From assembly GCA_017859785.1 (NCBI GenBank), contig JAFMMJ010000007.1, positions 1-48,004 of the forward strand: a stretch of DNA of 48,004 nt. The letters are read 5' to 3'. The DNA is from Ilumatobacteraceae bacterium. Lineage in GTDB: Bacteria > Actinomycetota > Acidimicrobiia > Acidimicrobiales > Ilumatobacteraceae. A model generated the notes under the pieces. It was not told the DNA's origin. It was given only the letters and a program-made list of their open reading frames with translations, and did not search any database. The translations under genes and the position numbers were made by a program. Positions 43,812 through 46,500 of the stretch are shown one piece after another (within the stretch, counting starts at the first letter, position 1; every line of letters starts with the position of its first letter).

Positions 43812-44243
43812 TTACCCCGCCCTGATTCGACGACCACTGACCTCCGTGGCTCGGATCCTCACCCAGTGAGTTCTTGACACCGCATCGGCCCATGGTTGAA
43901 GTCCAAGGTGCGCCAAGTTGTCGAGCTCGTCGGCATCGAGGACCTCCTCGGCGCTACCCCGAAGCAACACGCTCCAGCCGGTGTGACCAGCGGTATCCCA
44001 GGCGTCCACCTCGAATGCGATCGGTCGCCCCATCGAAGCGGCAAGCAATTTCGAACCGTACGAGGTTCGAAACACGATCGAGTGCCCGTCAACCCGGTGA
44101 GTCACGGGGAACACCACCGGCTCACCGGCGTCGACAAAGGCGACCCGGCCGACGGCGGCGGAGTTCAGCCGCGTCCAACAGGCGTCGTTATCGAGCACCT
44201 CAAGGCCTTGATGGTCGCGGATCGGGTCGGAGCGAGTGTCCAT
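43812..44243 (-). CDS. Pyridoxamine 5'-phosphate oxidase-like (flavin split-barrel) protein
   Basis: 143 residues. Split-barrel fold: VGRVAFVDAGEPVVFPVTHRVDGHSIVFRTSYGSKLLAA, then VAFEVDAWD and a final WVRIRATEVSGRRI. Members bind FMN or F420 and reduce or bind varied ligands. The upstream region holds a DosR-like box (44276-44295) and GCACACT six bases before the ATG, the same arrangement as the response regulator gene. Such proteins are also found in the mycobacterial DosR regulon. Confidence 0.88.
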   Translation of the reverse strand: MDTRSDPIRDHQGLEVLDNDACWTRLNSAAVGRVAFVDAGEPVVFPVTHRVDGHSIVFRTSYGSKLLAASMGRPIAFEVDAWDTAGHTGWSVLLRGSAEEVLDADELDNLAHLGLQPWADAVSRTHWVRIRATEVSGRRIRAG

Positions 44244-44312: not shown

Positions 44313-45311
44313 ATGTCCCCCGACGGCTCGCGCGTGGCCTTCGAGGCCAATCCCGATGCGGTGCTCATCGTCGGTGCCGACGGCGTGATCTCCGAGGCGA
44401 ACCCGGCGGCGCACCTGCTCTTCGGCTACGGCCCGACCGAGTTGATCGGGCTCACCGTGGAGCAGTTGGTTCCCGAAATGAGTCGTCACCGTCATGTCGA
44501 ACTCCGCCAGGGCTACGAGGCGCATCCACTCCCCCGCCCGATGGGTCTCGGTATGGGGTTGATGTGCGAGCGAGCCGATGGAACGAACGTCCCGGTTGAG
44601 ATCTCCCTCAGCCCGCTCGGTGATGGCGGCTCGACCATCGCCACGGTCAGAGACGTGACTGACCGGCTGGCTGACCGGAATGAGGCGAGGCGCAACGTCT
44701 CTCGACTCGAGTTACTCGAGGACCGCGAGCGGATCGCCCGAGACCTTCACGACATGGTGATCCAACGTTTGTTCGCCTCGGGCATGAGCTTGCAGGCGGT
44801 GGCCGCAATCGCCGAACCCGCTGAGGTGGCTGAGCGGATCATGTTCACCATCGATGAACTCGACGACACCATCCGCGACATTCGCAACACGATCTTCGAA
44901 CTGCACCTGCAGCGGCGTCCTGCGCTGTCGGAGCAACTCGCCAACTTGATCGCCGACCGGAGCGACGCGCTCGGATTCGAGCCCAAGCTCAGCGTGACCG
45001 AAGAGATCGACCGGCTTCCTGCTGATTTGAGCGACGACTTGCTCGCGACCCTCGCCGAGGCCCTGTCGAACGTCGGTCGACACGCCACCGCCGGATCCGC
45101 ATCGGTCACCGTGGAGCAGCGAAGCGGTTCACTGAGCCTCGTCGTGGTCGATAACGGGCGCGGAATGCCGGCCGGGCCGAATCCGGGACACGGTCTGTCG
45201 AACATCCTCTGGAGGGCCGCGAACCACGGCGGCCGATGCACTTGGCGCCCCGCCGATGGCGGAGGCACCGTCATGGAGTGGCAGGTGCCCGTGCCGATTG
45301 CTGGGCCGTAA
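44313..45311 (+). CDS. PAS-domain sensor histidine kinase (NarL/DesK-type, DevS-like core)
   Basis: 332 residues, soluble. A PAS domain (about 8-118) is followed by the HisKA_3 helix with the phospho-acceptor His146 in RIARDLHDMVIQRLF and an HATPase domain (LAEALSNVGRHA, DNGRGM, GHGLSNI). The core resembles DevS/DosS, but the two GAF domains are replaced by one PAS. That PAS aligns with FixL so that His61 falls at the haem-ligand His and Met81 at the distal Arg220 position (Met95 in EcDOS), leaving open haem-based sensing. Its stop lies three bases from the stop of the convergent response regulator. Confidence 0.9.
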   Translation: MSPDGSRVAFEANPDAVLIVGADGVISEANPAAHLLFGYGPTELIGLTVEQLVPEMSRHRHVELRQGYEAHPLPRPMGLGMGLMCERADGTNVPVEISLSPLGDGGSTIATVRDVTDRLADRNEARRNVSRLELLEDRERIARDLHDMVIQRLFASGMSLQAVAAIAEPAEVAERIMFTIDELDDTIRDIRNTIFELHLQRRPALSEQLANLIADRSDALGFEPKLSVTEEIDRLPADLSDDLLATLAEALSNVGRHATAGSASVTVEQRSGSLSLVVVDNGRGMPAGPNPGHGLSNILWRAANHGGRCTWRPADGGGTVMEWQVPVPIAGP

Positions 45312-45314
45312 ACA

Positions 45315-45977
45315 TCAGGCGTCTCGTCGATGCCGTTCAGTCAGGCGAGCGGCGAGCGCCGCGGCCTCGGTGCGCCGCGACATCCCCAACTTCGCGAGGA
45401 GATTCGACACGTAGTTCTTGACGGTCTTCTCCGCCAAGAACATCTCCTCCGCGATCTGTCGATTGGTTCGTCCCTCTCCGATGAGGTCAAAGATCCTCGT
45501 CTCCTGTGGCGTCAGGTCGAGGAGCCGGCCCCCCTCGGAAGACCTCAAGCGCTGCAAGGCCATCTTGGCCTCCGCCGAATCGAGCAGGACCGCGCCTCCC
45601 GCAATCCGACGGATCGCGTCGACGAGGTCGGTGCCACGGATCTGCTTGAGGACGTATCCCGCTGCACCGGCCATCGCGGCATCGAGAATCGCCTGGTCAT
45701 CGTGGAGTGAGGTCAGGATGAGGCAACGGACATCCTCATGAGCCGACCGGATGGCTCGACAGACCTCGATGCCGTTGCCGTCGGCGAGACGCACATCGAG
45801 TACCGCCACATCGGGCCGAACCCGGTCGACGACCCGCAACGCTTCAGTGGCGCCGCCCGCCTCCCCAACGATCTCGATATCGGTCTCGCGATCGAGCATC
45901 GCTGCCAACCCAGCGCGAACGACCTCGTGATCATCGAGCAGGAAGACCCTGATCGTCCCGAGTTCGGTTGCGGCCAT
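45315..45977 (-). CDS. DevR/DosR-like response regulator (NarL family)
   Basis: 220 residues. Receiver domain with DDHEVVRAGL and phospho-acceptor Asp61 in VLDVRLADGNGIEVCR, then a LuxR-type HTH (about 150-200). The recognition helix EKTVKNYVSNLLAKLGM is virtually that of mycobacterial DosR, so a similar DNA target is expected. It is partnered with the adjacent kinase. A DosR-like box at 46010-46029 upstream of its own start predicts autoregulation. Confidence 0.93.
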   Translation of the reverse strand: MAATELGTIRVFLLDDHEVVRAGLAAMLDRETDIEIVGEAGGATEALRVVDRVRPDVAVLDVRLADGNGIEVCRAIRSAHEDVRCLILTSLHDDQAILDAAMAGAAGYVLKQIRGTDLVDAIRRIAGGAVLLDSAEAKMALQRLRSSEGGRLLDLTPQETRIFDLIGEGRTNRQIAEEMFLAEKTVKNYVSNLLAKLGMSRRTEAAALAARLTERHRRDA

Positions 45978-46009
45978 ATCACCAGTGTGCTCGTTGCCGA
46001 AGCATCGTC

Positions 46010-46029
46010 CTAGGGACCAAGGTCACCCT
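46010..46029 (-). promoter_or_regulatory. DosR-box-like element upstream of the response regulator
   Basis: Minus strand AGGGTGACCTTGGTCCCTAG matches the DosR consensus at about 13 of 20 positions and holds the dyad GACC/GGTC. It spans -52 to -33 from the ATG at 45977, exactly as the box before the split-barrel gene. GCACACT ends six bases before the ATG (CACACT at 45989-45984). The remaining ~90 bases up to the small gene at 46119 show nothing I recognise. Confidence 0.55.
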
Positions 46030-46118
46030 GGCCGTGCCGCGGTTCGGCCTGCCGCATGAGGTCATCGGCACGCCTGCGCCAGAGCCCGACTCAGCGCCGG
46101 TGCAGCGACCGCGTGTCG

Positions 46119-46343
46119 TCAGCCGTCGATGTCGGCAGCGACTCCTCGAGCGAGCGCCGTCAGACGTCGACGAAAGGCCGACACGCTCGGGGTGTCGAAT
46201 TTGAAGCCTTTCGGTGAGAACTCGAGGATTTCAGCCCACTCCGCTCGCCGATCCTCGGCCGCCTTGGTGCGACTGGGGTACGCCTCGACGAGAAACGCCG
46301 CGACGAAGTCGTCGATGTCATTCGAAGACTTCGAACCCGCCAT
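46119..46343 (-). CDS. Small hypothetical protein
   Basis: 74 residues from ATG 46343, where GGAG lies three bases upstream. The frame also opens at 46358 (TTG-ATG). The composition is mixed, charged and soluble, with a FVAAFLVEAYPSRTKAAEDRRAEWAEIL helix and a basic FRRRLTALARG helix. No known family. It is adjacent to the tRNA gene on the same strand. Confidence 0.45.
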   Translation of the reverse strand: MAGSKSSNDIDDFVAAFLVEAYPSRTKAAEDRRAEWAEILEFSPKGFKFDTPSVSAFRRRLTALARGVAADIDG

Positions 46344-46414
46344 GCGCTCCACCATCAACTGGTACGAGTGAAGTCGGAGGTGAAGCGGTCCATCACCTGA
46401 CCCACCTCGTCCGG

Positions 46415-46500
46415 TGCCCGGGGCGGGACTTGAACCCGCACGACTCTTTCGAGCCAGGGGGGTTTAAGCCCCCCGTGTCTGCCAATTCCACCACCCGGGC
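46415..46500 (-). tRNA. tRNA-Leu (anticodon UAA)
   Basis: The minus strand folds as an 86-nt class II tRNA. The acceptor stem GCCCGGG pairs with CCCGGGC, and the D-arm contains TGGTGGAATTGGCAGACA as in leucine tRNAs. The anticodon loop CTTAAAC gives anticodon UAA on a G-rich stem, the long variable arm GGCTC/GAGTC is present, and the T-arm loop is TTCAAGT. The 3' CCA is not encoded (discriminator A is followed by CCG). Confidence 0.96.

Follow-up and report, generated by a model that had tools for sequence, protein, structure and literature searches.

The textbook example of a gas-sensing dormancy switch is DosS/DosR. Its mycobacterial form (DosS/DevS-DosR) and OsdK-OsdR of Streptomyces rely on GAF sensor domains, with a DosR-like box preceding the regulator gene. 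The haem ligand of DevS is reported to be His149, and it is a matter of dispute whether DosS responds to gas or to redox state (PMC4082495, accessible text). PAS domains carry the haem in FixL, where the sensor drives a histidine kinase, in PAS-A of DosP (EcDOS), and in FG214, the HTH-PAS haem protein of Fimbriimonas ginsengisoli (PDB 10JX/10JY). According to the available text on DosP, Met95 is the distal ligand, Arg97 the O2-binding arginine and Leu99/Phe113/Leu115 a hydrophobic triad, with autoxidation per min of 0.0053 in wild type, 0.16 in R97I and >9.5 in R97A (PMC4263535). FG214 is described as a haem b protein with the motif RTMG and His156 as proximal ligand; in the ferric state the distal position is assigned to His175, the dithionite-soaked crystal displays the pair His156-Met172, the M172I variant retains near-wild-type haem, and ferric FixL is given as five-coordinate in the same source (PMC13060918, accessible text).

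Drawing on nearly 3 million PAS domains, a survey identified a histidine on the F-alpha helix as the primary haem-binding determinant in the FixL/DosP cluster, where it predicts haem for >9,700 sequences, or 60% of the total; the other 40% have no F-alpha His, and for many PAS domains no cofactor is known (PMC10468136, accessible text). Because haem is predicted there for F-alpha-His sequences, the haem-PAS class prediction is already in print, and haem-PAS and DosR systems are each already known. Among the matches listed in an open-access literature search, the titles and abstracts contained no PAS-type sensor for a DosR-like regulator and nothing on DosR in Acidimicrobiia.

A single-PAS histidine kinase next to a DosR-type regulator

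We analyzed a 48,004-nucleotide stretch of DNA from an Ilumatobacteraceae bacterium, referred to as the window (Table 1). The domain make-up computed for its kinase consists of a PAS domain (Pfam PAS, E 2.6e-12, residues 8-113) and a HisKA_3 plus HATPase_c core common to the sensor kinases DosS/DosT, DevS being the closest PDB sequence to the ATPase domain. Unlike the GAF-bearing DosS/DevS and OsdK sensors, it harbors one PAS domain, and Pfam yielded no GAF match in the kinase at E <= 0.01. It is the sole HisKA_3 match at E <= 0.001 in the genome (1.96 Mb, 98.8% complete) and reaches 44.6 bits against the NCBIfam FixL model, below the cut-off of 850. The nearest named relatives are found in metagenome-assembled genomes of Actinomycetota and Ilumatobacteraceae.

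Table 1 Coordinates of the features discussed (window positions unless a relative locus is named)
Feature	Position	Strand	Basis or remark
Sensor histidine kinase, 332 aa, PAS-HisKA_3-HATPase_c	44313..45311	+	ORF, codons, Pfam
PAS domain, residues 8-118, FixL/DosP/FG214 class	44334..44666	+	Pfam, TIGR00229, PDB sequences, AF2, Foldseek
His61, candidate proximal haem ligand, F-alpha helix	44493..44495	+	Alignment, conservation, AF2 helix 55-70
Arg75, on BjFixL His214 and DosP Arg91	44535..44537	+	Alignment; 57/57
Met77 of RPMG, on FG214 Met172, candidate sixth ligand	44541..44543	+	Alignment; 57/57
Met81, on FixL Arg220/DosP Arg97	44553..44555	+	Alignment; Met in 8/57, Leu in 40/57
HisKA_3 domain, residues 138-198	44724..44906	+	Pfam
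Phospho-acceptor His146 in HisKA_3	44748-44750	+	Invariant in 40/40 aligned kinases
HATPase_c domain, residues 241-328	45033..45296	+	Pfam; DevS closest among PDB sequences, E 9.9e-12
DosR/DevR-type response regulator, 220 aa	45315..45977	-	Pfam, PDB sequences, residues; convergent with kinase, 3 bp between genes
DosR-like box GGGACCAAGGTCAC, 36 bp upstream of regulator start	46013..46026	+	Motif scan; 2 mismatches to relatives' motif
Pyridoxamine 5'-phosphate oxidase family gene (Pyridox_ox_2)	43812..44243	-	Divergent from kinase, 69 bp between starts
Multicopper oxidase genes of relatives	L088:2482-3912, L083:2595-3980, L119:123-1514, L012:64-1452, L091:2559-3956		Membrane-anchored-looking

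The closest PDB sequence to the adjacent regulator is mycobacterial DevR (218.7 bits, E 4.6e-64), followed by VraR at 135.5 bits. It combines a receiver with a LuxR-type domain, and its Asp61, Thr89, Lys111, Lys184, Lys187 and Asn188 correspond to DevR Asp54, Thr82, Lys104, Lys179, Lys182 and Asn183, which we take to be the phospho-Asp and DNA-contact type residues and which are thus kept; the role of DevR Lys182 is also stated in an abstract. Speaking against DosR identity, the best NCBIfam model is MadR, with a score of 177 bits where the cut-off is 300. The regulator adjoins the kinase in 52/57 loci, lying 3' and convergent in 27 and 5' and divergent in 25; in the remaining 5 it was not found in the available stretch. 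Across 221 genomes of the family, the kinase (E <= 1e-45) occurs in 57, a set different from the 57 His61 sequences described below, the regulator (E <= 1e-60) in 67, and both in 55. Within the window's genus, kinase and regulator occur as a pair in 2/16 genomes (G000-G015), which may reflect loss in small genomes or transfer.

Several neighboring genes were recorded as well. Genes like Pyridox_ox_2 lie near PAS-type kinases in 5/5 cases (L033-L037) and near GAF-type kinases in 4/12 (L016, L017, L018, L023). The segment 42141-43837 (minus strand) holds a Methyltransf_4 gene (tRNA methyltransferase type) and a gene for a 2OG-Fe(II) oxygenase; in L003, the nearest relative, the oxygenase gene is again found next to the kinase. 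A tRNA-Leu (taa) gene at 46413-46500 (minus strand) separates the regulator from a PD-(D/E)XK nuclease-family gene.

The PAS domain resembles FixL, DosP and FG214

Searched with phmmer against PDB sequences, the PAS domain matched FixL best (E 4.9e-14), and the alignment with BjFixL runs gapless through the haem pocket from residue 11 to about 110. This agrees with the initial annotation of 44313-44670 (kinase residues 1-119), as does the position of His61 on the FixL haem His, which we take to be BjFixL His200; the same column holds DosP His77 and FG214 His156. As judged by sequence comparison, the likeness to FixL exceeds chance, because all 14 of the 14 distinct PDB sequences at E < 1e-6 are FixL, FG214 or DosP and the next match stands at E 0.003. 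The domain is closer in sequence to FixL/DosP than to other solved PAS domains, and with an F-alpha His at the FixL place it fits the FixL/DosP class of haem PAS (cluster 3, Xing et al. 2023).

Around the presumptive distal side, Met77 aligns with FixL Ile216, DosP Glu93 and FG214 Met172, Leu79 with the distal Met95 of DosP, and Gly80 with FG214 His175. Met81, 20 residues past His61, aligns with FixL Arg220 and DosP Arg97; the FixL R220A variant 1y28 has its Ala exactly in this column, which confirms the Arg220 number and the placement originally proposed. The same annotation had equated this position with the distal Met of EcDOS, a claim that is off by two residues because DosP Met95 aligns with Leu79. 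For this comparison, the DosP sequence was taken from E. coli MG1655, in which the annotated residue numbers run 8 below those of the literature.

The window kinase therefore shares with FixL, a haem-PAS driving a histidine kinase, the gapless alignment and the proximal His, but has Met81 in place of the O2-binding Arg220 (Arg in 1/57 relatives) and a DosR-like partner instead of FixJ. With PAS-A of DosP it shares the proximal His, the Arg at +14 and the places of the hydrophobic triad, which map onto Leu83/Ile97/Leu99, whereas Met95 and Arg97 of DosP are Leu79 and Met81 here, and the reported DosP output, c-di-GMP hydrolysis, contrasts with a histidine kinase. FG214 has its proximal His and motif Met at the places of His61 and Met77, so that its His156/Met172 pair is matched, at the level of sequence, by His61/Met77, while its His156/His175 pair is unmatched, His61 and Gly80 being found instead; FG214 is a one-component DNA-binding protein, not a kinase. 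The initial annotation rightly cautioned that PAS domains of the RPMG type are common, yet FG214, with RTMG, is a crystallised haem protein.

FAD and Fe-S cofactors are disfavoured, because residues 1-120 contain no Trp and one Cys: the mark of FAD-PAS proteins such as NifL and Aer, a Trp on F-alpha according to the accessible text of PMC10468136, is absent from this segment, and so is the Cys cluster of Fe-S PAS domains of the NreB type.

His61 and Met77 are conserved together

Relatives were collected as ORFs covering >= 85% of query positions 15-320 at E < 1e-40 (76 ORFs, 70 distinct); gathering by similarity to the window kinase favours shared residues. His61 is present in 57/70. It is kept in 57/57 single-PAS relatives of the same type, so that the lack of conservation named in the initial annotation as grounds for refutation does not occur. 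Met77, Arg65, Arg75 and Leu99 are each present in 57/57 of these. The hydrophobic positions vary little (position 97: Ile in 52, Val in 5; position 83: Leu in 52, Val in 5), and position 81 is Leu in 40, Met in 8 (including the near relatives L003, L009 and L090), Gly in 5, and Pro, Val, Ile and Arg in one each. The 13 relatives without His61 belong to Streptomyces, Wenjunlia, Planomonospora and Actinomadura, and Met77 is found in 0/13; since the 13 form one clade in a quick tree, the joint absence of His61 and Met77 counts as one event.

In 12 PAS domains from elsewhere, 11 of them hand-picked from 60 matches listed plus S. meliloti FixL, His61 occurs in 11/12 and Met77 in 7/12. Three FixL-like rows combine Ile77 with Arg81, a Paraburkholderia PAS has Met77 together with Arg81, a Croceicoccus PAS pairs His61 with Val77, and a Halorarius PAS has neither His61 nor Met77.

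An RPMG-type PAS with the His also occurs in PAS-PAS-STAS proteins of streptomycetes (L041:644-1927 and similar ORFs in other streptomycete loci), encoded ~2 kb from a PAS kinase without His and Met. The PAS of the Streptomyces protein in L041 matches FG214 best among PDB sequences (E 7e-24), ahead of FixL (2.2e-19), and might supply a STAS regulator with a haem-PAS input.

Structure models place His61 on a helix

The AF2 model of the PAS domain (57 sequences; pLDDT 89.9, pTM 0.83) has His61 on helix 55-70. Foldseek searches with this model returned FG214, FixL or DosP in rows 1-30, FG214 ranking first and the first other PAS appearing in row 31. VIA-align likewise ranked FG214 first (Z 17.1) and FixL next (16.4); they were followed by the PAS structure 3lyx (15.9), for which no haem is stated, and by a LOV domain (15.4). 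Since 3lyx and LOV domains score this close to haem-PAS proteins, the fold cannot settle the cofactor, and fold alone was discarded as proof of haem. In the model of the full kinase (40 sequences; pLDDT 89.3, pTM 0.51), helix 116-166 holds His146.

DosR-like boxes precede the regulator gene

The mycobacterial DosR consensus has 3 sites in the window versus 2.82 expected, and genome-wide it has 3 per strand where the reversed pattern has 9, so it gives no signal here. Scanning 82 relative loci, taken as Acidimicrobiia and some of them duplicated, with the 20-base DosR consensus gave 11 matches at <= 4 mismatches (12 permuted palindromes: 0-3) and 24 at <= 5 mismatches (controls: 2-17); 16 streptomycete-group loci gave 0. 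The matches in the 82 loci served to derive the relatives' motif GGGACCAAAGTCCC. At <= 2 mismatches, this motif has 44 matches in 57 loci, a tally in which a palindromic site counts twice, compared with 0-10 for 10 shuffled motifs. It lies within 150 bp upstream of the regulator in 18/52 loci, where 40 permuted motifs reach at most 1/52, and in 37/52 at <= 3 mismatches, the latter count being without control. Within 150 bp after the kinase it occurs in 21/57 loci (controls at most 2), a position favoured by construction because these loci, and mostly their after-kinase sites, were the source of the motif; the regulator position is much less favoured in this way. Genome-wide, GGGACCAAAGTCCC has 6 sites versus 5 for the reversed pattern, and hence no excess.

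The window's predicted box is placed before the regulator gene, as in DosS/DevS-DosR and OsdK-OsdR. In the nearest relative, the site is a perfect palindrome at the same spacing, likewise with 2 mismatches to the motif. A promoter and terminator scan of 45250-46200 found none. In relatives with the divergent arrangement, the after-kinase box precedes a cupredoxin plus two-domain multicopper oxidase gene in 5/5 scanned, making this cupredoxin-multicopper oxidase a possible target of the kinase-regulator system. Nitrite reductase was rejected as an assignment for the multicopper gene: among the 5 scanned, the best score was 73 bits, below the cut-off of 296.3.

PAS and GAF sensors alternate within the family

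Twelve genomes of the family have the regulator without a PAS kinase at threshold. Six of these (G022, G026, G029, G157, G240, G241) encode a GAF-HisKA_3 kinase together with the regulator in one stretch; G029 additionally has a two-PAS kinase with the same PAS type, just under threshold, and in G019 the PAS kinase looks split between contigs. A GAF domain from the same order (L018) matches DevS GAF-A at E 5.7e-51. An HP motif is present in 31/34 GAF stretches, the other 3 being without the anchor string; we read this motif as holding the equivalent of the haem ligand reported as His149 in DevS, the placement being our own reading of the sequences. Because DosS-type GAF kinases adjoin such regulators, one regulator kind appears to work with two different haem folds within a single family, which bears out the suggestion that a PAS domain replaces the GAF of DosS. 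In a quick tree of 112 catalytic cores, with weak deep forks and long branches that meet, the PAS-His group needs 5 changes, and for at least 2 of these the branches that require them are well supported. We tentatively propose that the haem sensor of a DosR-type system was exchanged between two unrelated folds, the PAS-haem form with His61/Met77 and no distal Arg being tuned to redox or NO. As far as found, a His/Met axial pair has not been described in a histidine kinase, and this part of the proposal is equally tentative.

Proposed mechanism and alternatives

Taken as a whole, the window kinase is probably a haem-PAS, DosS-like kinase with a DosR-type partner. It would be a soluble enzyme whose sole sensor, a PAS domain of the FixL/DosP/FG214 class, most likely carries haem b, with His61 on the F-alpha helix as putative proximal ligand. 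The distal side would be hydrophobic (Leu83, Ile97, Leu99) and free of an O2-stabilising Arg, and in one of its redox or ligand states Met77 of RPMG may fill the sixth site. Because Met or Leu replaces the O2-binding Arg, and DosP without Arg97 is reported to autoxidise much faster, the domain is unlikely to hold O2 stably; a redox, NO or CO signal, or O2 read via oxidation, is the favoured inference. Reduction, or a gas displacing the sixth ligand, would move the F-G loop, and the change may travel down the helix starting at residue 116 to His146 and set autophosphorylation. The phosphoryl group would then pass from His146 to the neighbouring regulator, at Asp61, and this regulator would bind DosR-like boxes, including the one that precedes its own gene.

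That the domain binds haem at all is likely. The genome has a ferrochelatase gene, so haem can be made by the host, and the haem or redox sensing initially suggested gains from the haem-PAS identity of the closest solved relatives, from His61 in 57/57 and from the DosR-type partner and its box, while the ligand role given to Met81 is not supported. Counting against haem, the class contains a great many His-bearing PAS domains, of which few have been tested, and the main distal His of FG214 is Gly80 here, with FG214 M172I reported to load haem nonetheless. The wider reading has against it the genome-wide box count and the presence of the pair in no more than 2/16 genomes of the genus. A PAS domain with another ligand, or one acting purely as a structural dimerisation module, would suit the many PAS domains without known cofactor, the 40% of the class without the His (PMC10468136, accessible text) and the failure of the fold alone to separate haem-PAS from other domains. 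We consider it unlikely, given the invariant His61, nearest solved sequences that are all haem proteins, and a DosR-type partner, whose known sensors are, in the texts available, haem kinases.

If haem is bound, the question is what occupies the sixth site. Met77 then has nearly an even chance of being the ligand, and overall its ligation is a tentative assignment. A five-coordinate, FixL-like site, with His61 alone on the iron and Met77 structural in the F-G turn, is somewhat short of even but a serious option once haem is granted, and somewhat doubtful as a complete account. Ferric FixL itself, the near-wild-type haem of FG214 M172I (PMC13060918, accessible text) and the FixL rows with Ile at the Met77 place all accord with it, but Met77 is strictly kept among the relatives and is Met in 7/12 PAS domains elsewhere, and Met172 is reported on the iron in reduced FG214 crystals (PMC13060918, accessible text). 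The originally proposed EcDOS-like pair of His61 and Met81 can point to the proximity of Met81 and to the Met retained in 8/57 (L003, L009 and L090 included). Yet Met81 falls on the O2-binding Arg and not on DosP Met95, and position 81 is Leu in 40/57 whereas Met77 is invariant and aligns with FG214 Met172. An EcDOS-like role for Met81 is therefore rejected, on the direct DosP alignment as well as on conservation; as a ligand it is improbable even with haem present, and the His61/Met81 pair as an overall reading is very improbable.

Significance for Ilumatobacteraceae

A marine-type actinobacterium appears to sense O2, NO or redox by a FixL-type haem domain, and this sensor appears wired to the kind of regulator that mycobacteria control through a quite different haem domain. 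A natural DosR system with another haem fold and without the O2-binding Arg would separate the contributions of haem fold and kinase. The common RPMG-type PAS domains, whose signal is mostly unassigned, would become testable as a His/Met haem sub-class, and the Ilumatobacteraceae would gain a testable low-oxygen or NO response.
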